In this document: positions 14,384 through 62,868 of the stretch, in pieces
How the letters are laid out: the number at the start of each line of letters is the position of its first letter
How positions within the stretch are numbered: the first letter of the stretch is position 1
From: Nitratireductor sp. XY-223
GTDB lineage: Bacteria; Pseudomonadota; Alphaproteobacteria; Rhizobiales; Rhizobiaceae
Direction of reading: 5' to 3'
Assembly (NCBI RefSeq): GCF_004959855.1
Contig: NZ_SPNT01000005.1
Span: 248,001-312,000 of the forward strand
Length of the DNA: 64,000 nucleotides
Notes under the pieces: generated by a model
Database searches by the model: none
Told to the model about the DNA's origin: nothing
Seen by the model: only the letters and a program-made list of their open reading frames with translations
Position numbers and translations under genes: made by a program

Positions 14384-15153
14384 TGCTCCGGTCACGGTTC
14401 AGCGCAGTTCTTCGGCCGGTGGCCATACTGATCGCGGTGATTGCCGGTGCCTCCGCACTCTATCAACTGGCGCGCGATCCGACGGATTCGCGGCAAGGCA
14501 AGACACCGGGTGCCGTCTGGTCCGGGAACGAAGCCGGCGAAAACGGGGGCGTTGCCGATGCGGCGGCGCCGCGCGCCATCGCGCCGGAACAATTCGCGAC
14601 GCCCTTTGCGCAAAATGCCGTCCAGCTTGAACGCATCGCGCCGCGGGCGCCGTTGACGCCGACGGTCGAACGGGACACCGGCCCGCGCCCGACCCTGCTG
14701 CACAAGCCGCTGGTGATTGCCGCCGGGGAGATCGTCTTTCCCGAAGGCGGGCTGCGCCTGAAAGGCATTGTCGTCACCGACCCGGACGACATCTGCTCCG
14801 ACCAGGACGGCCGGCTGTGGCCCTGCGGCATCATCGCGCGCACCGCGTTTCGCAACTTCGTCGGCGGGCGCTCCCTGTCATGCAACCTGCCGGAGGAGCG
14901 ATGGAAAGAGATCGTCGTCGTCTCCTGCCTCGTCGGCAAACAGGATCCGGCGGCATGGCTCGCCAGCAGCGGCTGGGTCAGAACATTCGTCGGCAGCAAA
15001 TATGCCGACCTGGAACAGGACGCACAGAAGGAAGCCAAGGGCATATTCGGCAGCGATCCGCGCGGCCTGGCATCCGTTCCGGACAGCGGCCGGGTGGTCT
15101 CCCCCGACGGGGTCAGCCCTTTGCCAGATCCCCTGCCAGTGCCTTTGCGATGA
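14383..15153 (+). CDS. Membrane-anchored thermonuclease-family protein
   Basis: A 256-residue protein with an N-terminal signal anchor (about residues 8-26) and a Pro/Ala-rich spacer. From about residue 110 it has an SNase-like segment ([14 protein letters not shown], ending in [18 protein letters not shown] and AQKEAKGIF), which resembles the thermonuclease/TNase family common in Rhizobiales. The usual catalytic Arg/Glu triad of staphylococcal nuclease is not obvious, so catalysis is doubtful. Cysteines ([13 protein letters not shown]) may form a disulfide, in line with an export location. It is coupled to the S24 regulator and overlaps the convergent lysS 3' end by 41 bp. Confidence 0.65.
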
Positions 15154-16777
15154 GCGCACGGGTCTCGCCGATGCCGTAAAGGGCGACGAATGATCCGAAC
15201 CGTGGGCCGCGCTCCTGGCCCAGAAGCACCTGATAGATCATCTGGAAGAAGGCGATCGACACGCCCGGCCCGCCGTCGGGGCTCTTCTTGTTCGGGTCCT
15301 GATAGCGCTCGATGGCGCGTGCGACATCGAGCACGGCATCCTGGATGACGGCGCCGTCGGCATCAGCGGGCAGCGCCGCCAGTTTCTGATCGAGCGCGGT
15401 CAGCGCCTGGCGCTCGACATCGTCGGCCGGCCTGAACACCTTGGTCGGCTTGACGAAATCGTTGAAGTAACGGATCGCGTAGCCGACCAGCTGGTCGAGC
15501 TTCGGATGGGTCTGCGGCGTGACGCCAGGCGCGTAGCGGGAAATGAAGCCCCACAACACGTCGCTGTTTTCGGCGTTCGAGGCGCTGACGAGATTGAGCA
15601 GCATGGCGAAAGGCACGGGGTTTTCAATCGCCGGCGGATTGCCGTCGTGCAGGTGCCACACGGGATTGCCGAGCCGGTTCTTCCAGTCCTGGCGCGGATA
15701 GGCCGAAAGAAACGAGAAATACTCGTCGACCGCCTTCGGGATGACATCGAAATAGAGTTTCTTGGCCGTCTTCGGCTTCTGGTACATGTACAGCGCCAGG
15801 CTCTCCTCGGACGCGTAGGTCAGCCACTCGTCGATCGTCAGGCCGTTGCCCTTCGACTTGGAGATCTTCTGGCCGTTCTCGTCCAGGAAGAGTTCGTAGT
15901 TGAAACCCTCCGGCGCGGGCTTTCCCAGCGCCCGGCAGATCTTCGACGACAGGGTGACGCTGTCGATCAGGTCCTTGCCGGCCATCTCGTAATCGACGCC
16001 GAGCGCATACCAGCGCAGTGCCCAGTCGGCCTTCCACTGGCACTTGACCCGGCCGCCGGTGACCGGGGTCTCGACCGCTTCGCCGGTCTCCGGATCGATA
16101 TAGGTGACCGTGCCGGCGTTGACGTTGCGGCCGGTCATCGGCACCTGCAGGACCTTGCCGGTGCGCGGGCAGACCGGAAGGAACGGCGCGTAGGTCGCGC
16201 GTCGTTCCTCGCCCAGCGTCGGCAGGATGATGGCCATGACGTCGTCATAGACCTCGAGCATGCGCAACAGCGCGGCATCGAAGCGCCCGCCCTTGTAGTA
16301 TTCCGTCGAGGACGCGAATTCGTAGTCGAACCCGAACCGGTCGAGGAAGGTGCGCAGGCGCGCATTGTTGGCGGCGCCGAAGGACGGGTACTCGCTGGAG
16401 AACGGGTCCGGCACGCTGGTGAGCGGCATGCCGAGATACTCCTGAAGCATCTCCTGGTTGGGCAGGTTCGTCGGCACCTTGCGGAAACCGTCCATATCGT
16501 CGGAGAAGCACAGGATCTTCGTCTTGACGGCATCGCGGGTCAGCACCCGGAAGGCGTGGCGCACCATGGCGGTGCGGGCGACCTCGCCGAACGTGCCGAT
16601 ATGCGGCAGTCCGGACGGGCCGTAGCCGGTTTCGAAGAGAACGGTCTCGGGATAGCCGGCCTTCTCGCAGCGCTTGACGATTTTCCGCGCCTCCTCGAAC
16701 GGCCAGGCCTTTGCGTCGGCCGCTGCCGCAATCACATCCTCGTCGAGGTTGATCTCAGTCTGGCGGTGCGTATTCAT
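15113..16777 (-). CDS. lysS: Lysine--tRNA ligase, class I
   Basis: A 554-residue class I lysyl-tRNA synthetase, the archaeal-type enzyme that many Alphaproteobacteria use instead of class II LysRS. It charges tRNA-Lys with lysine using ATP. The Rossmann signatures are present: HIGT at residues 59-62 (in [13 protein letters not shown]) and KISKS near 305 ([12 protein letters not shown]). The start at 16777 ([14 protein letters not shown]) is chosen over a longer GC-rich upstream frame. A GAAAGAAAGACG purine-rich stretch precedes it. The 3' end overlaps the convergent thermonuclease-like gene. Confidence 0.93.
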
Positions 16778-17094
16778 CGTCTTTCTTTCAGCGTTCCTGC
16801 GAAATTTGGGCCGGGCTGCGGCCGTGCCGTGCAACGCCGCCGGCGGGTGTTCGATTTGCCCGGATTTGCCGATGCCGCGGCCTGTCCATGCTGCAGCGCA
16901 GCGGAACCTATGCCCTGCGCCGGTTCGCGTCAATGCGGCGCGCGCGCGCTTTTTGCCGTTGTGGCGGAAAATACGGTAGATTTTGCTTCAAAATGACCGA
17001 TTCGCAGATTATGAACCACCTTGCACTCACTCGCGCCGCTCCATAGTTTAGGCTCAACCAAATCAGCCGGACGCAGACGAAAGAAGGACCTCGC
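16778..17094. other. Divergent intergenic region between lysS and terB-like gene
   Basis: No gene is seen in these 317 bp. The lysS side is very GC-rich, and the terB side turns AT-richer from about 16965. A possible terB promoter is TTGCAC (17021-17026) with TAGTTT (17044-17049) at 17-bp spacing, but the -10 is weak. No palindromic operator was noticed. Confidence 0.4.
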
Positions 17095-17508: not shown

Positions 17509-17569
17509 CCGGCACATGCGCGTCGCTTTGTCCAGTGGCATTCCGCCGTTTCGGCGCTAAATCTTGAGC

Positions 17570-18397
17570 ATGGACCCGGAAATCCAATTGCAGCTGTTCG
17601 GGCTCTCGGAGCCAACGGTGCGGCTTATCGCCTTTGCGGCCATCTTCATATCGATGGCGGCCTTCGAGCTTTTCAGCCCGCGGCTTGAGCGCAACGAGCT
17701 GGTCGGCGCGATCAAGGCCAGGCGCTGGTTCACCAATCTGTCGATCCTGGTGCTCTCGTCGATCGCGCTCAGGGTGATCTTCCCGCTCGCCGCCGTCGGC
17801 ACGGCGCTGTGGGCGCAGGAGCGCGGCTACGGCCTCTTTACCGTGCTTGAGACGCCGCCCTGGATCGCCGGCATCATCGCCTTCGTCATTCTCGATTTCG
17901 CCGTGTGGCTGGAACACGTGGCGAGCCACAAGTTCCACATCCTGTGGCGCATCCACCGCATGCACCATTGCGACCCGGGCTTCGACGTGACCACGGCGCT
18001 CCGCTTCCACCCGCTGGAGATCCTGATTTCCATGGTCTGGAAGGCGCTGATCATCCTTGCCCTCGGGCCGCCGGCCATAGCCGTCCTGATCTTCGAGATC
18101 GTGCTCAACGGCACGGCGATGTTCAACCATTCCAACATCAAGCTGCCGCTGCCCGTCGACCGGCTGGTGCGCCTCGTGCTGGTGACGCCCGACATGCACC
18201 GCGTCCACCATTCGAGCGACAAGCGCGAGACGGATACGAATTACGGCTTCAACTTTCCGTTCTGGGACCGGATCTTCAGGACCTATTACGCACAGCCGCG
18301 GCTCGGCCATCAGGAAATGGATATCGGGCTGGAAGACTATCGCGGGGATGCGCCGACGAAGCTCGGCTGGTCACTGCTGCTGCCGTTCCGGAAGTAG
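17570..18397 (+). CDS. Sterol desaturase / fatty acid hydroxylase family protein
   Basis: A 275-residue polytopic membrane di-iron enzyme. The three histidine boxes are visible: HVASH (116-120), HRMHH (129-133) and HRVHH (210-214), with an additional H-x-x-N-H type region around FNHSN. Family members hydroxylate or desaturate lipids using O2 and an electron donor; the lipid substrate is unknown. The ATG at 17570 is preferred over a TTG two codons earlier. Downstream lies the edge of the AT-rich insert. Confidence 0.88.
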   Translation: MDPEIQLQLFGLSEPTVRLIAFAAIFISMAAFELFSPRLERNELVGAIKARRWFTNLSILVLSSIALRVIFPLAAVGTALWAQERGYGLFTVLETPPWIAGIIAFVILDFAVWLEHVASHKFHILWRIHRMHHCDPGFDVTTALRFHPLEILISMVWKALIILALGPPAIAVLIFEIVLNGTAMFNHSNIKLPLPVDRLVRLVLVTPDMHRVHHSSDKRETDTNYGFNFPFWDRIFRTYYAQPRLGHQEMDIGLEDYRGDAPTKLGWSLLLPFRK

Positions 18398-18534
18398 CTT
18401 ATGTTAGGGCCAGTTTGGTCATATGACCGTGGTGACTTTTTTCTGGCTGGTGTGGATCCACCGTGAGCGCAAGCGCGGAGGCCATCAAACGTTGTGTTGA
18501 ACCTTCGGAGTGTTACTCCGTGTCGATCAGCCTT

Positions 18535-19965
18535 CTAAACAACCCCAAGATATGAACGAAGAGCTGGATGCACTACCAAAATTGAAGATTTAAGCTCCCT
18601 AAGTGAAATAATTCTCTCTTCCATAGAATAAACTATTCTATCTTTCCTTTTTATTCCCAATATACCTGTATCATATAATACCTTAATTCTGTCATTTGTG
18701 CCTTTTACAGAAAACCATTGATGCTTTCCAAGCGCGTCCATAATGTTGTTATTACCAGATATATTCGCTATTCTTTCCTTCAAAATATCAAATTCAAAAG
18801 AAGCCTCGCTATCATCCAACACATACTTCGCAAACAAATCTAAATCTGGATATATGTCTCTGTATTCAGCGCAAACATCTGAAAATTTTTCGGTTGAGAA
18901 ATCATCCATCACTCTTTCAAAATTGGCCCAAGATATTTTCTTTCCTTCCATATTAGCAGCTGCGAGATTGCACAAAAAAATGAAATCCCTTGGACCGTTG
19001 CGGCATAGCGATACAAGTTCAGCAACCCTTTGATTCCATGACTTCATGTCGCCCAAGTTGAAAAACAACAACCATACTCTATACAGACTTTTCTCTTCAA
19101 CATCAGTTATTGCATTTTTTACTTTATCTACATGAAATACTGAAATTCTCTTTGCCAACATCTGCTTATATTGGTATTCGTTCCAGTCTAAAAACTCGAA
19201 TTGATCTCTAACTTTGTCGTACTCGCGTCTACCTTCTGAAAGAATTTTCCACAATCCAAGCTTCATGCAGAGAAGAACGTGAATCTTATTACCGGTTCGC
19301 TTGTTTATGTCCGACACTGCTCGGACCAATCCTTCTATAAAAACCGGATTCTCTTCAATTCGATTGAATACCTCTTCCAGATCATCGATCTGAATATATA
19401 CTCTTCTAGAACCAATTGTATTAATAAATCTTTCCACTAATGAATTAAGAGAATTGTTTACTATAGCATTAGATTGGCTGGAAAATAATTTATCTAAGCT
19501 AATAGTTGCTCCCGCAACCGATATTTCTACTTTTGATACACTTTTTGCGGCTGTTTTAATTTTTTTGAATGTACTGCTCAAAATTCCGCCAAAATCTTTC
19601 CAGTCAAATCCACCCTGCTCTTCGATAATAGATGCAACCTTTGTTAGAATATAAAACTGAATTAGATGGGAAGCTCTCCCGGACTTGATGGAAATTTCAC
19701 TGGCATCCAAATCAAATACGTTTTCCCGTTCATTAAATCCGACAACAATGTCTTGATCACGTACATGACCATCAATTAGCATTCTGAAATGTGTTTTTCC
19801 GTATCCCTTCGGCGCGACCAAAACACATTTGCCGGTGCTTCGGTCACCATATTTCATTCTATCTTCAAATCTTAGTTGAACATGTAGGGAATCACGCAGG
19901 TCCTTCTGTATTTCTATATCGTCTAGAGGACCGAAAAAATCATTTGCTGGATACTCATGTGTCAT
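18535..19965 (-). CDS. P-loop ATPase, Sll1717-like family
   Basis: A 476-residue predicted NTPase with Walker A APKGYGKT (residues 51-58) and Walker B IQIDDLEEVF with Asp194/Asp195. The C-terminal half is helical and ends in SLRELKSSILVVHPALRSYL. The layout fits the AAA/STAND-like P-loop ATPases annotated as the Sll1717 family, often found in accessory DNA. The base composition and codon use are clearly AT-rich compared with the flanking genes, a sign of transfer. It is the second gene of a pair, overlapping the small upstream gene by 11 bp, so the two products probably act together. Function is unknown; a phage-defence role is a hypothesis. Confidence 0.72.
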   Translation of the reverse strand: MTHEYPANDFFGPLDDIEIQKDLRDSLHVQLRFEDRMKYGDRSTGKCVLVAPKGYGKTHFRMLIDGHVRDQDIVVGFNERENVFDLDASEISIKSGRASHLIQFYILTKVASIIEEQGGFDWKDFGGILSSTFKKIKTAAKSVSKVEISVAGATISLDKLFSSQSNAIVNNSLNSLVERFINTIGSRRVYIQIDDLEEVFNRIEENPVFIEGLVRAVSDINKRTGNKIHVLLCMKLGLWKILSEGRREYDKVRDQFEFLDWNEYQYKQMLAKRISVFHVDKVKNAITDVEEKSLYRVWLLFFNLGDMKSWNQRVAELVSLCRNGPRDFIFLCNLAAANMEGKKISWANFERVMDDFSTEKFSDVCAEYRDIYPDLDLFAKYVLDDSEASFEFDILKERIANISGNNNIMDALGKHQWFSVKGTNDRIKVLYDTGILGIKRKDRIVYSMEERIISLRELKSSILVVHPALRSYLGVV

Positions 19966-20476
19966 CTTTGATTACATATACGTATACAGGTTTTCGCTTT
20001 AATTTACCTATTCCAACTAGCAAAGAAAGTATACGTTGTATTTCCTCTGCGGACAACCCATGCGTTTTGCCCTTGAGAGTTGAAACCAAATTATCGACAA
20101 CTCGATTTTCGAGGGCGGATTTGCTACCGCAAACTTCAATTATCTGTTGATACTCCATTCCATTGGCCGACATGTAGTCTTTGCAAGCGTCGAACAGGCA
20201 ATTGTTAAACGAAATATCGTCTTTAGCAGCGTTACGGGCCCGGTTTTTCACCTCAATGTGCTCATCTTGATCGAATGACACAAACTCTAATTGGTGCATC
20301 CACATTAGGTTATTCGAAACGGAACCTCGGCTAACCGGATTACCATTAAAACGCAAAGCACGTGGCGCATTGTCTCTAATCGAAGAGTAGAAGTCCTCAA
20401 AGACAATTCGGTCTTCCTCAAACATACAAAGAACGGCGTTAAGCGCCTTTATTTTTTCATAAAGAGTTACAGACAT
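19955..20476 (-). CDS. Hypothetical protein, partner of the P-loop ATPase
   Basis: A 173-residue protein that I do not recognise. No signal peptide or membrane segment is present. The N-terminal 75 residues (SRGSVSNNLMWMHQLEFVSFDQDEHIEV) have the pattern of a winged helix with a beta hairpin, and the C-terminal part is helical and charged. It is the first gene of the AT-rich pair; its TGA lies inside the start of the ATPase gene (overlap 19955-19965), which implies translational coupling. It may be a DNA-binding or sensor subunit, but that is inferred from context only. Confidence 0.65.
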   Translation of the reverse strand: MSVTLYEKIKALNAVLCMFEEDRIVFEDFYSSIRDNAPRALRFNGNPVSRGSVSNNLMWMHQLEFVSFDQDEHIEVKNRARNAAKDDISFNNCLFDACKDYMSANGMEYQQIIEVCGSKSALENRVVDNLVSTLKGKTHGLSAEEIQRILSLLVGIGKLKRKPVYVYVIKDDT

Positions 20477-20717
20477 TATTCGATTCTTACCCCAATTTCT
20501 TTTAGATAAGCCGCGCCTGCTTATTTTGGCAAACTTGCTAAATTATGCAGATTGTAGCAACACACACAACTTAATTGATCTGCTAATCGTGTGTGAAACA
20601 ATTTAAGGTAGTTACCTATTTCCCGGCCATAGCTGCCAACTTGAAGTGAAACACTCGGGGCAGGGAATCGTGTTGGATGCAATAACTGACAATGCCGATC
20701 TCATTCTGCACGAACAA

Positions 20718-21572
20718 CTAGTACAATCCGTTGGGGAAATAACGCAGGTAAAGTTCGCGCATGCGGCCGTCCTTGCTGATCGCGTGGATGGCGTGGTCGA
20801 AGGCATCGGCAAGGTCCGGGCTGTCGCGGCGCACGGCGATCGCCAGCCCCTCGCCCAGGAAGGCCGGGGCGAAATATGGCCCGTCGAAATAGGAACAGCA
20901 TTCATTGGCCGAGTTGCTGATCAGCCAGAAGGACAGTTGCACGCCGTCGCCGAAAACCGCGTCGACCTCGCCCGTCTTCAGCCCGTCGAACATCCATTCG
21001 TCGCGCTGGTAGGTAACCGGCTGGATGTCCGGGAAATAGGCGCGCAGCATGGCGGCATGCGCGGATCCCGCCATCACGCCGACGCGGCGGCCGGCCAGCG
21101 CCGAGGCGTCCTCGCCGTCGATCTCGACCCGGTCGGCGCGCACGAAACGGGCCGGGAATTTCAGGAACGGCCGGGTGAAGATGTAATCGTCCCGGCTCAG
21201 CACATTGATGGCGACACCGGCGATGAGCGCATCGCCCTGGCCGCCGGCGATGGCGGTGGACAATTCGCTCCACGGCAGGACCTGGATCTGGCACTTCTGC
21301 GCGATGTTCAGCTCGGCGCAGATTTCCCGCGCCAGGTCGACATGGAACCCGGACACGTGTTCCTGCTGGTCGAGGAAGTTGAAGGGCGGGAAATCATGGG
21401 TGGTCAGGAAGCGGATGCGGTTGCGCGCCGAAAGGTCCGGCACCTCGACCCGCTCGCGCGGGTCCCAGTAGTTCGGGTAGGTCGCGGTTTGCGCCTCGCC
21501 GGACTGCTGCGCGGCGGCAGGAAACACCAGCAAGGCGGCCAGCAGCGCAAGCCAGGCATTCGGTCGTGTCAT
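20718..21572 (-). CDS. Periplasmic substrate-binding protein, family 3 (amino-acid type)
   Basis: A 284-residue secreted protein with a signal peptide (cleavage near FPAAAQQ) and the SBP_bac_3 bilobal fold. Visible segments are IRFLTTHDFPPFNFLD, then GFHVDLAREICAELN, and GDALIAGVAI followed by FTRPFLKFPARFV. No ABC permease or ATPase gene is adjacent, so it is an orphan receptor. Three Cys residues (KCQ, NECCSYF) may form a disulfide. It starts 33 bp downstream of tRNA-Gly on the same strand and may be read from the tRNA transcript. The ligand is unknown. Confidence 0.8.
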   Translation of the reverse strand: MTRPNAWLALLAALLVFPAAAQQSGEAQTATYPNYWDPRERVEVPDLSARNRIRFLTTHDFPPFNFLDQQEHVSGFHVDLAREICAELNIAQKCQIQVLPWSELSTAIAGGQGDALIAGVAINVLSRDDYIFTRPFLKFPARFVRADRVEIDGEDASALAGRRVGVMAGSAHAAMLRAYFPDIQPVTYQRDEWMFDGLKTGEVDAVFGDGVQLSFWLISNSANECCSYFDGPYFAPAFLGEGLAIAVRRDSPDLADAFDHAIHAISKDGRMRELYLRYFPNGLY

Positions 21573-21604: not shown

Positions 21605-21678
21605 TGGAGCGGGTAGCGGGAATCGAACCCGCGCGTCAAGCTTGGGAAGCTTGCAGGCTACCATTACATCATACCCGC
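21605..21678 (-). tRNA. tRNA-Gly (anticodon CCC)
   Basis: On the minus strand the acceptor stem GCGGGTA pairs with TACCCGC. The anticodon stem CAAGC/GCTTG encloses the loop TTCCCAA, so the anticodon is CCC. The T arm contains GGTTCGATTCC. The CCA end is encoded (minus-strand reading of 21605-21607). Total 74 nt with CCA. Confidence 0.93.
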
Positions 21679-21768
21679 AACTCTATGTTTTCATTTCGCA
21701 TTCTTAAAGAGTCTGCAGAATACAAAAACTAATTCGCGCTGCATCGCACCGCCGCAACGAGGCATCTA

Positions 21769-22596
21769 TTACGCACGCGGCGGGATGCTTTCCATCTTGT
21801 CTAGCATTTCTTTGACATCTGCATCCAGACTAAGTTGGTCAGTTGTGTGTACACAATAAATACCCGCGTCAACAACCATGTTTGTGTCTGGATGACCGAA
21901 GAATCGATCTGACAATTGTCGAAGGTAACGGGGCTCGACGAAGTGATGATTCCCAGAATTTTTATCTACGCATCTGTACAGGGCATGTGCGACAAGATCA
22001 GCTATCTTTAGCAAAGGTTCCTCACCCTTCTTACGGGACACAATCCGATCCACGTCTATGTTTTGCAACATTCCGGTTCTACGTCGCCTAGGATTGCGTT
22101 GGCACGCCCGAAGGAGATTCTTCATCATCTCATAGTCCACTTTTGCCTCTTCAAATACTATGTCGAGGTTTTCCGGCGGGATGCCGCGTGCATGCATAAA
22201 CCAGCCTACGCGCTCAAGCAGGTACTGCGCACATTTGTTGTAATACATAGTGTGAGCATTGCCGATGCGCTTCCTGTAGTCGCCAAGTGTGCTCTTCTTT
22301 GAGATCACGCCAAAAAGACGCATTTTTCGTTTCGCAATGCTGCGTGCACAGTGGAGCAGTTGATAGTGGTTCAGCCTAGAACAATGCAGCTCTTTTCCTA
22401 CTTCAACCTCTATTTTGGAAAGCGCGTCTTTTGTTGTATTGAGTGAACGATTCCGCATTAAGGATGCACCCAACGTCATATAGGGCGACGCACCCGCTTG
22501 ATCGGCATCTCGGACCTTGCCAATGCCCGCCTCCCCACTTTCATCGATGAATACTGTAAAGCGCGTTTTCAATTCGAGAACCTTTTCGGTCACCAT
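21769..22596 (-). CDS. DUF3800 domain-containing protein
   Basis: A 275-residue protein with the DUF3800 hallmark FIDESGEAG near the N-terminus (acidic pair at about residues 18-19) and the matching C-terminal element LLKIADLVAHALYR. The conserved acidic residues suggest a metal-dependent nuclease-like fold, but no activity is established. DUF3800 genes are frequent in mobile and defence-rich regions. The ATG at 22596 is taken; a TTG lies one codon earlier. It faces away from the AbiJ-type gene across a 171-bp region and lies 90 bp from tRNA-Gly. Confidence 0.85.
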   Translation of the reverse strand: MVTEKVLELKTRFTVFIDESGEAGIGKVRDADQAGASPYMTLGASLMRNRSLNTTKDALSKIEVEVGKELHCSRLNHYQLLHCARSIAKRKMRLFGVISKKSTLGDYRKRIGNAHTMYYNKCAQYLLERVGWFMHARGIPPENLDIVFEEAKVDYEMMKNLLRACQRNPRRRRTGMLQNIDVDRIVSRKKGEEPLLKIADLVAHALYRCVDKNSGNHHFVEPRYLRQLSDRFFGHPDTNMVVDAGIYCVHTTDQLSLDADVKEMLDKMESIPPRA

Positions 22597-22767
22597 CAAA
22601 TCTGGCTAACACATACTACCGCCTGCAATCATACATTGCGATATATCCGGTCCAACAAGCCCGGACTGCCGAGCCTTTGTCATGCGTCGACTAGGGAGTG
22701 CTGTCTTGGTTACATCGGACATGAGTGCTACACCTGCGAACTTAAACGCAGAGGTTCGACCGCCGAG

Positions 22768-23658
22768 ATGACCGAGGAAGAAGATCCGTTTGAAGTACGG
22801 AAGCGACTGACATTTGAGCAGGCGGAAGGAGCGGCACCGCTTCCCACACAGCTGAAGCCAAAGGAGATAACCCAAGAACTTCGGGCGGTGTTGTGGCGCA
22901 CGGTCCACGTCAGTTTGAAATCTTGTCGGGTGTCTCCGCGTCCGGGCGGTTATGTCTATACATTGAAAGACCCTTGGCGAAGGATCTTGTTGGCACTTCA
23001 CATCTATCGCGATTATCGCATGGACGACGATTTCGTAGAAGACGCAGATGAGCAAATTAAGTCCGTGCGGGCAATCTTCGAACAAGGCGACTACTTGGCG
23101 ATCTTTGGCTGGCTGCAGGAAGTTCTGCGGCGTGATCCTCCTCACCGCTTCCCCGAGTCGATAATCCGGGCGCTTACCTATAGCCGCGCACCTTACAGGG
23201 TAATAGCTGGCAAGACGATCGTACCCATTAGCAGCGATACTGAACTAGAAACACTGAAGAAGGCGTTCGCTGACATCACGGCTGCAGAGTTTCATGGTGC
23301 GCGTGCCCACCTTCACAGGGCGGCAGAGTTGCTTACGGAGGGCAATTGGGCAGATAGCGTGAGGGAAAGCATACACTCCGTTGAATCTGTGGCGCGGGTC
23401 TTAGATGGTTCCGGAGAGTTTTCAAAGGCGCTCGCGCGGCTTGAGAATACTGTTGGCATCCACGGCGCGATGAAGGAAGGTTTTAAGAAGCTGTATGGAT
23501 ATAGCAGTGATGAACAAGGCATCCGACATCCCCTGCTAGATGACGGGGCCGCTTCAGTTGACGAACAGGACGCTATGTTCATGATCGGCGCGTGTGCCTC
23601 GTTTGTCTCTTATCTAATCAATAAGGCAAGGGTTGCGGGCCTGTTGTCAGCCACATAG
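22768..23658 (+). CDS. AbiJ-NTD4 domain abortive-infection-like protein
   Basis: A 296-residue protein. The N-terminal part (EITQELRAVLWRTVHVSL) matches the AbiJ N-terminal domain 4. The C-terminal part has the conserved run of the family: DSVRESIHSVESVARVL, SKALARLEN, KKLYGYSSDEQGIRHPLLDD and FMIGACASFVSYLI. This half resembles HEPN-type domains, which are RNases in several toxins, although a clear R-x4-6-H motif is not seen. The ATG at 22768 fits the domain start; a longer frame upstream overlaps the divergent gene. Such proteins are linked to abortive infection against phages; activity here is inferred. Confidence 0.82.
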   Translation: MTEEEDPFEVRKRLTFEQAEGAAPLPTQLKPKEITQELRAVLWRTVHVSLKSCRVSPRPGGYVYTLKDPWRRILLALHIYRDYRMDDDFVEDADEQIKSVRAIFEQGDYLAIFGWLQEVLRRDPPHRFPESIIRALTYSRAPYRVIAGKTIVPISSDTELETLKKAFADITAAEFHGARAHLHRAAELLTEGNWADSVRESIHSVESVARVLDGSGEFSKALARLENTVGIHGAMKEGFKKLYGYSSDEQGIRHPLLDDGAASVDEQDAMFMIGACASFVSYLINKARVAGLLSAT

Positions 23659-23962
23659 CCTAGTATCGGCTCAGCGTAGGAGAGATTAAAGAACAAGTCC
23701 GCGGGTCTAACCGCGTAGGTCCAGTCCATAACGGCCAGTACTGTGCCGCGCAGTGCGCCTACAGCTGCGGTAATGACCGTGACCTCACCAGCCGGCCGGT
23801 GTAGAAGACGTTGGGCTACATGCCCGCACCTTTGACGCTGCAATCGACCCGCCATTGCCTCGCCCGACAAGAGTGAAGCACTCCATTTCTGTCAAGCACA
23901 GCTTGACTCCGGCCAAACCCGTTGCCATGTGCATGTCGTCCCAACGCACCGACCGGCCCGCC
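23659..23962. other. Gap after the AbiJ-like gene
   Basis: About 304 bp with no supported gene. GC content rises back to the level of the core genome around 23750, so the right edge of the inserted segment probably lies here. A short minus-strand open frame (23610-23870) resembles nothing I recognise and is not called. Confidence 0.4.
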
Positions 23963-60446: not shown

Positions 60447-60522
60447 GCCGCTGTAGCTCAGTTGGTAGAGCACGTCATTCGTAATGATGGGGTCGGAGGT
60501 TCGAGTCCTCTCAGCGGCACCA
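60447..60522 (+). tRNA. tRNA-Thr (anticodon CGT)
   Basis: Acceptor stem GCCGCTG pairs with CAGCGGC. The D arm is AGCTCAGTTGGTAGAGC, and the anticodon loop TTCGTAA between CGTCA and TGATG gives anticodon CGT. The T arm contains GGTTCGAGTCC, the discriminator is A and CCA is encoded (60520-60522). 76 nt with CCA. An AT-rich insert starts right after its 3' end. Confidence 0.95.
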
Positions 60523-60851
60523 GTCCATTCGAGACTCCTGTTGGCCATATAGCAGGCCACCTATCCCTCAAATTCGAAGCACCGCCGATCGACTACCGGC
60601 TTCGGACGAACAAGCGCACCGGAGAGGAGCAACAGGTTCCGATCGGTGTCGATCCGGGGAAGGCCGACAAATCAAGTTTTGCCGCAAGCAGGCGCTGACA
60701 ACACACCTGTGCCGAGGTCGCATCTGCACACTACCATGCCATGCAACTATTTGGCGTTTTTGTTTGAACTAAACCCCAGATTGATCAATGATACGTCCGA
60801 GCCGTGGTCCAAAACATCGACCCCTTGATTTAAAAAAATGGGGTGGCTTCT
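60523..60851. other. Gap between tRNA-Thr and the AT-rich insert genes
   Basis: 329 bp with no supported gene. Composition drops from core-like to AT-rich around 60720. No integrase remnant or second copy of the tRNA 3' end was recognised here. Confidence 0.4.
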
Positions 60852-61436
60852 ATGTCTGAGAAAAAATCAAAATCAGGCGCCATATTGGTCGTATTGGGCA
60901 TTTTGTTGCCCGGTGGGCTAGTGGTTCTTTTATTCACGCATTTCTTCCCGATCGAATTTGTTCGTGGCGTTCGTGTCGAATGTTCAGTGGATTCTTATCA
61001 GGGGCCGTTGATTTTGGCGGTGGGAGAAGGGGAATATCTGATCAGATATAATCCACGACATCGTTTGGACCCGAATACCGGTTTTGACACGAAACTGGTC
61101 CTAACATCGGTTCCACCAGGCAACACCGATTACCCTGAGTTCACTTATTGCGCTGAGTTTTCGAAAACTGACGCATCGAATTGTAAGGATGCTTCATCAT
61201 GGCATGCGAGTAAGAATGACGGGAAGCTTGTCGAGGTAGCGGTGGCAAGGGACACCTACCATCTGGTTAATTTGGACGCCGGCGTTACGCTCCAAGGTAC
61301 TGTTGTAAGAACCGTCGGAGACAACAATCAACGCGTCGAAGGCACCAATGGTCTAGCAGTGGATGTTACGGTCTCAAAAAAGGGTTTGATCAACTATAAC
61401 CCGATCCTTCGGGAAAGATGTGCGGCACTACATTAG
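60852..61436 (+). CDS. Hypothetical protein with one N-terminal membrane helix
   Basis: A 194-residue protein that I do not recognise. After a short Lys/Ser-rich start comes one hydrophobic helix (AILVVLGILLPGGLVVLLF, about residues 10-28). The remaining 160 residues are polar, beta-rich and contain four Cys, so they probably face the periplasm. The ATG at 60852 is preferred over a GTG three codons earlier. Base composition is AT-rich against the core genes, like the next gene, which begins 172 bp later. Both may be cargo of the same insertion; a functional link is not shown. Confidence 0.6.
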   Translation: MSEKKSKSGAILVVLGILLPGGLVVLLFTHFFPIEFVRGVRVECSVDSYQGPLILAVGEGEYLIRYNPRHRLDPNTGFDTKLVLTSVPPGNTDYPEFTYCAEFSKTDASNCKDASSWHASKNDGKLVEVAVARDTYHLVNLDAGVTLQGTVVRTVGDNNQRVEGTNGLAVDVTVSKKGLINYNPILRERCAALH

Positions 61437-61608
61437 CAGAAGCATATAGGCGAGTGCCGATCGGCGTCGCTCTCGGGTGGGACTGCGATCCGGAAATGAA
61501 AGCACATCACTTCAACACTGACATACAGCAATTCTAGATCTACATCGTTCGCATAACCTGCACCCTTCATTTTTTTATTACTTAATCAATTTTTTTGCGA
61601 GATCACAA

Positions 61609-62868
61609 ATGCCGCACGACCATTCAAAAAAACAGGAAACCATCGATTACTTCGACGCCTATGTACAAGCTTTTTCGAGATATATGAGATTGCACGAGAG
61701 TGCGTTGAACAATTGTTTTTTGGGAGCCGCACGGCGGAAGGTTTCCATGCAACTCTACTTCGGCAACTCAGTTTTCTGCGCGCGCCTTCTCGGCTCATGG
61801 AAGGGAGCCCCGACCGTTGAATGGCAGCCGGACAATTTGACGGATTTGACCACTTGCAAGTACGAAATATCGATCAAAAAAATGAGAGCATACGACTTGG
61901 TGTTCGGTATCCAAGTTGCATTCGGAAAGCCCGATATTGATCCCAAATTTCTATGCGATGGCTCTGGTCCGAAATTTGACAATCAAAACCGTTTGAAGCT
62001 GTTCACACCGCAGGGAACATGTGGATTGTGGGTGACTGCGCCGCACCTTATTCCCAGCAGAATTAGAAACAAATATGAGAGCGGGAAGATCTCACGCCGT
62101 CAAGAATTAACACAATCAGCCAGGCTCTTCCGACCATCCTGGATTCTGCAGTGGTTTTCGACCGACCACGATCCGCTAAGAGGACTGGAAACTGATCCAA
62201 AAATTGCTGGTTATGGAGCGGCGGAGAATTTACTTGGATTGGCCGGTTTTAGAGAAGGATCACCAGAACAACGGTTCATTAAAGCAGGATCCGCCCTTGC
62301 ACTGGCGGTCGCTAGACAATCGAAAACGAATGAGCCGGCAATACATGATGTTATTTCCAAAAACCCAGAGATCCTTGTGATTGACTATGAATCATTCTAC
62401 TCGAAAAAGAAGCTCCGCTTCACAGAAAATGTCAAGAACGAGGACGGAACGCTAACTCCGGAAATACGAACGATAGTACCAGATTTCGTATACGTTACAC
62501 ACGACCAGAAAATTGTCTGTGTTGAAATCGAAGCGTATGGCAAGCGGCTATTTACAACGGGCGTGGAAACAAATTTTGCTGTGCCTTCCGCTGCAACCAA
62601 TAGAGCCTCCTATCAGATCGAGAACTACAAAACCATCATTGACGGTTACGGCGGAAACGAAATCAGGGAGCAGTTAGGTTGTCCATCGGTCGCTCCGGCA
62701 AGCTTTTTGTTGGTTGTGGGCAGCAAGGATCAAAAAGATTTTGATGAGCGGAGTTGGATGCATCGGCAGACACAACTGGCTAAAGCGGGAATTGAGTTAC
62801 AAAGTTGGGACTATTATCTGGACAGGTTGAGCAGACTCGCAAAGGCATCCGCGTTCTCTGTCTTGTAG
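61609..62868 (+). CDS. Shedu-like (DUF4263-like) predicted nuclease-fold protein
   Basis: A 419-residue protein from AT-rich DNA. The first 240 residues are not recognised. The C-terminal 180 resemble the Shedu/DUF4263 PD-(D/E)xK fold: NEPAIHDVISKNPEIL (Glu242), TIVPDFVYVTHDQKIV with Asp292, CVEIEAYG (Glu306-Ile-Glu308), YQIENYKTIID, ASFLLVVGSKDQ and QSWDYYLDRL. Where the family has E-x-K, this protein shows E-x-E, so catalysis may be altered. Shedu proteins act as single-gene anti-phage defence. The assignment rests on motif order seen by eye, and other restriction-endonuclease-like families are possible. Confidence 0.62.
   Translation: MPHDHSKKQETIDYFDAYVQAFSRYMRLHESALNNCFLGAARRKVSMQLYFGNSVFCARLLGSWKGAPTVEWQPDNLTDLTTCKYEISIKKMRAYDLVFGIQVAFGKPDIDPKFLCDGSGPKFDNQNRLKLFTPQGTCGLWVTAPHLIPSRIRNKYESGKISRRQELTQSARLFRPSWILQWFSTDHDPLRGLETDPKIAGYGAAENLLGLAGFREGSPEQRFIKAGSALALAVARQSKTNEPAIHDVISKNPEILVIDYESFYSKKKLRFTENVKNEDGTLTPEIRTIVPDFVYVTHDQKIVCVEIEAYGKRLFTTGVETNFAVPSAATNRASYQIENYKTIIDGYGGNEIREQLGCPSVAPASFLLVVGSKDQKDFDERSWMHRQTQLAKAGIELQSWDYYLDRLSRLAKASAFSVL

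Follow-up and report, generated by a model that had tools for sequence, protein, structure and literature searches.

A laterally acquired ATPase gene of the Sll1717 family and its small partner gene in Nitratireductor sp. XY-223 form a candidate anti-invader module

Anti-invader systems of the HerA/FtsK type recurrently hold ORC/Cdc6-like ATPases, fast-evolving winged helix-turn-helix (wHTH) domains and nucleases, and in BREX the BrxC and BrxD proteins are ORC/Cdc6 AAA+ ATPases, and BrxA is a DNA-binding protein built from two or three helix-turn-helix (HTH) modules (PMC12839542, in the portions drawn on here). In the DefensePredictor study 42 cloned units lowered plating or plaque size in E. 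coli, DS-41 among them, and homologues of DS-41 occur in Halobacteria (PMC13092281). Here we describe a gene pair in a stretch of 64,000 nucleotides from Nitratireductor sp. XY-223 (contig NZ_SPNT01000005.1, positions 248,001 to 312,000; this whole stretch is hereafter called the window), in which a P-loop ATPase of the Sll1717 family (NF047389) is preceded by a small gene, P0002. The ATPase is of a kind already known to databases, its partner has no known relative in the collections searched, and the defence function that we discuss is a predicted one. A literature search naming Sll1717 or the Sll1717 family found no paper, and in a search on the pair no title or abstract start named such a combination of ATPase and small gene.

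The pair lies in foreign DNA. Alignment to congeners (designated G001 to G007) delimits an inserted segment of ~2.3 kb (18401..20719) between two convergent conserved genes, which by eye read as a sterol desaturase-type membrane protein on the left (17564..18397, plus strand) and a periplasmic solute-binding protein on the right (20718..21572, minus strand). Both flanking genes have DNA matches in 8/8 genomes of the genus, the own genome included. In congener G007 the flanks are 87% and 89% identical, and a single base separates the points to which window positions 18400 and 20720 align; the unaligned sequence between the two flanks is at most 81 bases long in G006, G002, G005 and G003. Since the flanks adjoin in these genomes, the site is empty in 5/7 congeners. 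In the other two it is occupied by other genes, with 4609 bases in G004 and 13,333 bases in G001. The insert in the window carries just two genes, with no transposase or relaxase among its listed open reading frames (ORFs) and no exact end repeats of note, and its non-coding ends have no match but themselves in 61 genomes (own included). The ATPase was matched in one of the 101 genomes searched, which is its own, in 3/356 genomes of the family (its own and two remote ones, at 20 and 25% identity) and in 4/398 genomes of the phylum (its own and others at 23-27% identity). The pair is thus a non-core, laterally acquired module, as had been proposed in an earlier reading of the window by a model that saw only its letters and ORFs (the sequence-only reading); it is no fixed core locus of related genomes, the insert being absent from the congeners.

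Both genes are encoded on the minus strand. P0002 (19955..20476, 173 amino acids (aa)) comes first and the ATPase gene (18535..19965, 476 aa) second, and they share an 11-bp overlap, ATGACACATGA (19955..19965, minus strand), which holds the start of the ATPase and the stop of the small gene and suggests that translation of the two is coupled. G+C is 0.366 in the ATPase gene and 0.414 in the small gene, as compared to 0.626 and 0.654 in the flanking genes, and 0.16% of the 1431-bp segments across the 64 kb are as AT-rich as the ATPase gene, with the gene itself counted. The longest ORF reached 173 aa or more in only 2/300 order-1 Markov copies of the insert, and the small ORF is therefore unlikely to be a product of chance. 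In the ATPase, residues 51-58 form Walker A (APKGYGKT; 19792..19815, minus strand), with G54, G56 and K57 invariant in a 17-sequence alignment of the family, and residues 191-200 form Walker B (IQIDDLEEVF; 19366..19395, minus strand), with D194 invariant and D195 nearly so. A PRD motif (P325, R326 and D327; 18985..18993, minus strand) is likewise invariant in this alignment and is a possible arginine finger or sensor 2. At four near-invariant residues of the same alignment the protein deviates (A59->H, D197->E, R235->K and R324->G).

The two genes, their overlap, their unusual base composition and the intact Walker motifs had all been reported in the sequence-only reading and hold as described, with one qualification on composition. 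For 40 relatives, from several phyla, 2 kb or more of flank was available, and in 38/40 the G+C of the ATPase gene lies more than 5 points below that of its flanks (one locus, L003, was dropped for short flanks, and viral and plasmid loci stand outside this count). The AT-richness of the window ATPase gene therefore follows a general habit of its family.

Assignment to the Sll1717 family is based on the NCBIfam profile NF047389 (P-loop ATPase, Sll1717 family), on which the protein scores 172.8 bits against a curated cut-off of 75, with residues 43-473 aligned to positions 28-454 of 454, and on the retention of the Walker A, Walker B and PRD residues. Searching 385 genomes of the class with this profile retrieved matches at E<=0.001 in 83 genomes, 16 of them (own included) above the cut-off; among 14 control genomes there were 3 with matches, none above the cut-off. 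A pattern scan of species genomes with a sub-alignment, which is not exhaustive, returned 89 stretches, of which 17 (from 16 loci) are relatives, and these come from Pseudomonadota, Bacillota, Bacteroidota, Chloroflexota and others. Pattern searches of viral contigs with alignment A3 and with the single ATPase found no relative. Within the family the window protein is remote: in a 42-row tree it occupies a lone long end branch (3.24) and falls in no well-supported set of up to half the rows, and its highest identity to any member of the tree set is 21% (locus L063). Local matches reach 27% identity over 215 residues, ~30% over a stretch of 90 and 50-52% over stretches of ~30 residues. Weak matches of the ATPase to Paxt-1_C (E 0.0045), ECM29_N (E 0.079), NF047691 (E 0.22) and a PHROG (E 0.72) were dismissed as chance.

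Structure prediction supports the view that the ATPase is an AAA+ protein most like ORC/Cdc6. The AlphaFold2 model, built from a 17-row alignment, has a predicted template-modelling score (pTM) of 0.70 and a mean predicted local distance difference test score (pLDDT) of 69.7, with residues 1-20, 29-44, 80-93 and 136-164 poorly modelled; residues 370-476, the region in which the C-terminal winged helix of an ORC/Cdc6-like protein would fall, are mostly well modelled as helices and short strands. The best Foldseek match of this model was the archaeal Cdc6/Orc1 protein 2qby_A (E 9.5e-6), followed by SSO1545 (2fna), and the 32 matches at E<=0.001 included ORC subunits, BrxC (9zdx, 9zll), PCH-2, FtsH, RFC and Avs3 (8dgc). 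For the archaeal Cdc6/Orc1 and STAND matches E-values ranged from 9.5e-6 to 3.4e-4 and template-modelling (TM) scores by target from 0.43 to 0.50. Since these scores are modest, the result points to a fold class and not to close kinship: the model has the AAA+ fold, P-loop and Walker B expected of an ORC/Cdc6-like AAA+ protein, features that FtsH, PCH-2 and RFC match too, and PF24389 (ORC-CDC6-like) was not among the Pfam matches of the protein. Compared with viral proteins, the model had five matches at E<=0.001, namely two RFC large subunits, a KAP-type protein, an AAA-family ATPase and an uncharacterized protein.

The data support a link of this ATPase family to defence, through evidence of mixed strength. 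The ATPase of locus L133 scores 396 bits on NF053860 (DS41_1, anti-phage protein; cut-off 370) and 112.6 bits on NF047389 (cut-off 75), and because it passes both cut-offs the DS41_1 and Sll1717 families are kin; judging from its name, NF053860 was presumably made for the DS-41 system of PMC13092281. The DS41_1 cut-off was passed in 1/299 phylum genomes. In locus L048 the ATPase, which at 76.9 bits is barely above the NF047389 cut-off, corresponds to the PADLOC candidate PDC-M28C (E 7.4e-118); the gene before it in the operon is PDC-M28B, a KGGVGR ATPase, and the cassette opens with a third small gene. Loci L051 and L052 are arranged in the same way and fall together with L048 in the tree; of the three, L048 is the one that the PADLOC scan covered. 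Another relative (L072, 1413-6780) has HsdM- and HsdS-type genes (type I modification and specificity) and then a DUF4145 gene matching PD-T7-4 (E 4.8e-14), with the ATPase 20 bp on, a two-gene pairing of this ATPase unlike that of the window. The C-terminal extension of the L053 ATPase matches PDC-M36A (E 1.6e-11) and by eye displays an acidic-and-ExK pattern. A near copy of it on a viral contig (L058:5902-7971) encodes a 689-aa Sll1717-type ATPase with a C-terminal extension and sits between what, judged by their translations, we take to be baseplate and tail genes of P2-like type, likely a cargo position among phage structural genes. Kin of L053 were found in 79 plasmid records (enterobacterial plasmids, 66 of them from Klebsiella) and in 2 Klebsiella phage records. 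The PADLOC check of neighbours covered 10 that were hand-picked and gives no rate.

Against Pfam, NCBIfam, PADLOC and PHROGs the small protein had no match that came near a cut-off. No relative of it was found in plasmids or in 299 phylum genomes (298 besides its own), nor in genome contigs or viral contigs by exact 8-residue patterns, which reach close relatives only. Phage proteins yielded two weak matches (E 0.04), both hypothetical proteins of Staphylococcus phages, PDB sequences yielded one (E 0.75), and among 7316 ORFs from the loci of the relatives P0002 matched itself, with the best other at E 1.2. Weak matches to Tmn (PADLOC, E 0.0052), NF002265 (E 0.029) and NF050184 (E 0.1) were dismissed as chance. 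The residue pattern of P0002 (SRGSVSNNLMWMHQLEFVSFDQDEHIEV, and near the end AEEIQRILSLLVGIGKLKRKPVYVYVIK) suggests a recognition helix and wing, present twice; the winged-helix label rests on this sequence pattern only, because the single-sequence structure prediction (mean pLDDT 37.2) was unusable.

We were able to inspect the gene order in 43 relatives of the ATPase. In 33 of these no same-strand ORF ends near the ATPase start, and in the other 10 such an ORF, of at least 60 aa, is present and is not P0002-like. These preceding ORFs comprise M28B in L048, like-sized genes in L051 and L052, the DUF4145 gene, gyrB (L075) and, in the remaining five loci (L034, L039, L040, L044 and L047), ORFs that are doubtful or unnamed. 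The near copies L053, L054, L055 and L058 are all four among the 43, while the tree was built without L054 and L055; L133-L135 were judged by gene position only. Outside both the check and the tree stand L067, L066 (same protein start as L042), L056 and L057 (relatives on viral contigs), L136 (a fragment) and L139-L140, as well as the weak family matches of the 385-genome class search except L050, L051 and L052. The related protein of L050 itself has a match of winged-helix type at its C-terminal end (Dimerisation, E 1.6e-5; 25.0 bits against a cut-off of 25.6). As a separate observation, a 257-aa ORF reading like a cold-shock-domain protein precedes the short (286 aa) Sll1717-type ATPase ORF of L067 (1724-3426); the ATPase gene may be split or truncated here, or the preceding ORF may be a further partner.

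The explanation that we favour, to which we give about an even chance, is that the pair is a mobile two-gene module directed against viruses or other invaders. Its support comes from the family membership of the ATPase, the kinship with DS41_1, the PDC-M28 cassette, the PD-T7-4-like neighbour, the PDC-M36A-like extension of L053 and the phage and plasmid location of its kin, the fold match, the recurrence of ORC/Cdc6 ATPases with HTH or wHTH proteins in BREX and HerA/FtsK systems (PMC12839542), the accessory nature of the insert, and the PDC-S32 and PDC-M19 candidates found nearby (see below). In such a module the small protein would be made first and would be coupled in translation to the ATPase. 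The latter, as its model and its family support, would bind ATP, oligomerise and act as a sensor or switch, and the small protein, possibly consisting of one or two winged-helix domains, would be a fast-evolving subunit for nucleic-acid or virus recognition, or for regulation. The partner may recognise a nucleic acid or a virus cue and load or release the ATPase, and the ATPase, once engaged, might load on or jam invading DNA, or block replication. In neither protein did profile searches reveal an effector domain; therefore either the ATPase would itself be inhibitory, in keeping with its solitary relatives, or an effector is concealed in the small protein, beyond what its sequence can show.

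We more tentatively consider that the pair is an undescribed two-component immune system, in which a divergent ORC/Cdc6-like ATPase acts only together with a dedicated, fast-evolving DNA-binding or virus-sensing partner. Such a system might, with the same tentativeness, represent a further way of fitting out this ATPase family, besides fused extensions, PDC-M28 and PD-T7-4-like partner genes. The statement of the sequence-only reading that no named system is known to have this exact pair agrees with Pfam, NCBIfam, PADLOC and PHROGs, where we found none.

Several findings weigh against a defence role for the pair. The window ATPase reaches 33.4 bits on NF053860, far under the cut-off of 370, and has no PADLOC match of its own up to E 10. 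Its fold match is modest, with TM-scores by target of 0.28-0.32 and root-mean-square deviations of 16-19 for BrxC, and with FtsH, PCH-2 and RFC matching too; a profile search of PDB sequences with the ATPase gave a best E of 0.0089. Some of the effector-like features of relatives are also faint: a HEPN match of the third small gene in the L052 cassette has E 0.013-0.02, below cut-off, and there is none in L048 or L051; L034 and L035 have N-terminal extensions whose nucleoside-deoxyribosyltransferase matches do not reach the Pfam cut-off; and the TIR-effector match of L034 is weak (E 3.9e-4). What G004 and G001 carry at the insertion site reads as genes for transport and metabolism and not for defence, and the site is therefore not a dedicated defence hotspot. 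The small protein has neither a homologue, nor a usable model, nor an established fold.

Nor is the pairing itself conserved. A P0002-like gene precedes the ATPase in 0/43 relatives, and in neither of two further relatives from the family to which the window belongs (L139-L140); in L140, 364 bp before the ATPase, there is an HTH protein of another kind (replication type, by eye). The pair is unique in the data searched, which counts against a conserved two-gene system, though with relatives so distant this lineage may still depend on its partner. In the sequence-only reading the ATPase and its small partner were proposed as a defence or conflict module, with a conserved pairing to count for it and an ATPase usually found without the small gene to count against it. 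The defence links of the ATPase family and the candidate defence genes nearby agree with this proposal; a conserved pairing is not supported, as the ATPase at the level of the family usually occurs without the small gene (33/43 without any such same-strand ORF).

These same counts favour another explanation, in which the ATPase functions alone and the small gene at the front would act locally as an autoregulator, or as an antitoxin-like repressor, of a costly ATPase, outside any defence complex. In most relatives the ATPase start has no same-strand ORF ending close to it, a partner-like gene is conserved nowhere among them, and in autoregulated operons it is common for a small DNA-binding-like gene to come first and to overlap the next one slightly. 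We consider this explanation rather unlikely. The window ATPase forms a separate long branch, and solitary relatives therefore say little of what it needs; DNA binding by the small protein is, moreover, only putative.

A decaying or non-functional remnant, from which partner genes have been lost, would account for the small size of the insert, for the missing effector gene and for the four changed near-invariant residues. It is nevertheless improbable, as both frames are intact, the Walker A lysine, the Walker B aspartates and the PRD motif are kept, and the 173 aa of P0002 exceed the longest ORF in 298/300 simulated inserts. About as improbable is a fragment of a lost plasmid or transposon, with an ORC/Cdc6- or TnsC-like ATPase and a DNA-binding partner serving replication, partition or target choice: the fold similarity to Orc1/Cdc6 initiators, the foreign nature of the insert, an ORF by L065 that by eye is resolvase-like and the replication-type HTH protein of L140 would fit it, but the insert has neither a transposase or relaxase among its listed ORFs nor end repeats of note, the 61 genomes hold no other match to its ends, and several relatives have defence links.

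The favoured explanation, that of an acquired anti-invader module, draws also on the surroundings of the pair. A second insert (21679..23886) adjoins a tRNA-Gly (21605-21678) and is absent from the four congeners that align on both sides (G007, G004, G006 and G003), where the tRNA-Gly and the next gene are adjacent. It contains a DUF3800 gene (21769-22599, minus strand; Pfam E 1.1e-12) and a PDC-S32/AbiJ_NTD4-like gene (ORF 22498-23658, plus strand) that matches PADLOC PDC-S32 at E 6.3e-52, its AbiJ_NTD4 match of 27.5 bits being under the cut-off of 34. This PDC-S32 candidate lies ~2 kb from the ATPase pair. In congener G007 (L113:5087-6383) a DUF488 gene and a second gene, matching PDC-M19A (E 1.2e-30) and M19B (E 1.3e-35), lie between the solute-binding gene of the right flank and the tRNA-Gly. 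Candidate defence cassettes, the PDC systems among them being themselves predictions, recur within 6 kb, at differing insertion points.

Elsewhere in the window we noted another AT-rich stretch (60447-62868), just after a tRNA-Thr. The 419-aa protein encoded there (61609-62868) scores 39.1 bits on SduA_C (Shedu; cut-off 27) and matches PADLOC SduA at E 2.4e-9. The gene at 15113-16933 reads by eye as a class I (archaeal-type) lysyl-tRNA synthetase; a tRNA-Cys call (16800-16870) falls inside the 5' part of the longest ORF there, and the true start of this gene is therefore probably later.

The finding points to a broad, little-studied ATPase family that spans several phyla. Sll1717-type ATPases appear to be variously equipped: some occur beside a DUF4145 gene or within a PDC-M28 cassette, others have extensions matching nuclease-type or TIR-like candidates (some of them weakly), and one kin family bears the name of a tested anti-phage system, DS-41. 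If the pair described here protects its host, it would demonstrate that one and the same ATPase lends itself to arming or steering by an unrelated small protein, and whether the ATPase is itself the weapon would become directly testable in a two-gene system. The low G+C of Sll1717 ATPase genes at 38/40 loci may reflect repeated transfer or, alternatively, selection on composition.

Among Sll1717 ATPases, the window protein has at most 21% identity to any other of the tree set (L063), forms its own long branch and is preceded by P0002, a partner absent in all 43 relatives. To DS-41 it is related through the DS41_1 member L133, which also passes the Sll1717 cut-off; however, with 33.4 of the 370 bits required the window ATPase does not belong to DS41_1, and no same-strand gene ends where L133 starts. 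The M28C subunit of PDC-M28 (L048) is likewise an Sll1717-like ATPase, barely above the family cut-off, whereas PDC-M28 is a three-gene cassette with the M28B KGGVGR ATPase and a third small gene, and the window has two genes and no M28C match. With archaeal STAND and ORC/Cdc6 ATPases and Avs3 (2fna, 2qby and 8dgc) the window ATPase shares the AAA+/STAND fold and its ATPase motifs; unlike Avs3 and STAND proteins it has, by Pfam, no large C-terminal sensor repeats or effector domain. The likeness to BREX lies in the Foldseek match to the ATPase part of BrxC (9zdx_C, E 1.5e-4) and in the notion that an ORC/Cdc6 ATPase is combined with a partner rich in HTH modules, as in BrxC with BrxA/BrxB (PMC12839542, in the portions drawn on). 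A BREX system has a large BrxC of 1200-1300 residues together with PglZ and a methyltransferase, whereas the insert holds only a 476-aa ATPase and a small protein without a Pfam match. By analogy, the window pair, while not a BREX member, would act like a minimal form of the ORC/Cdc6 plus wHTH idea.

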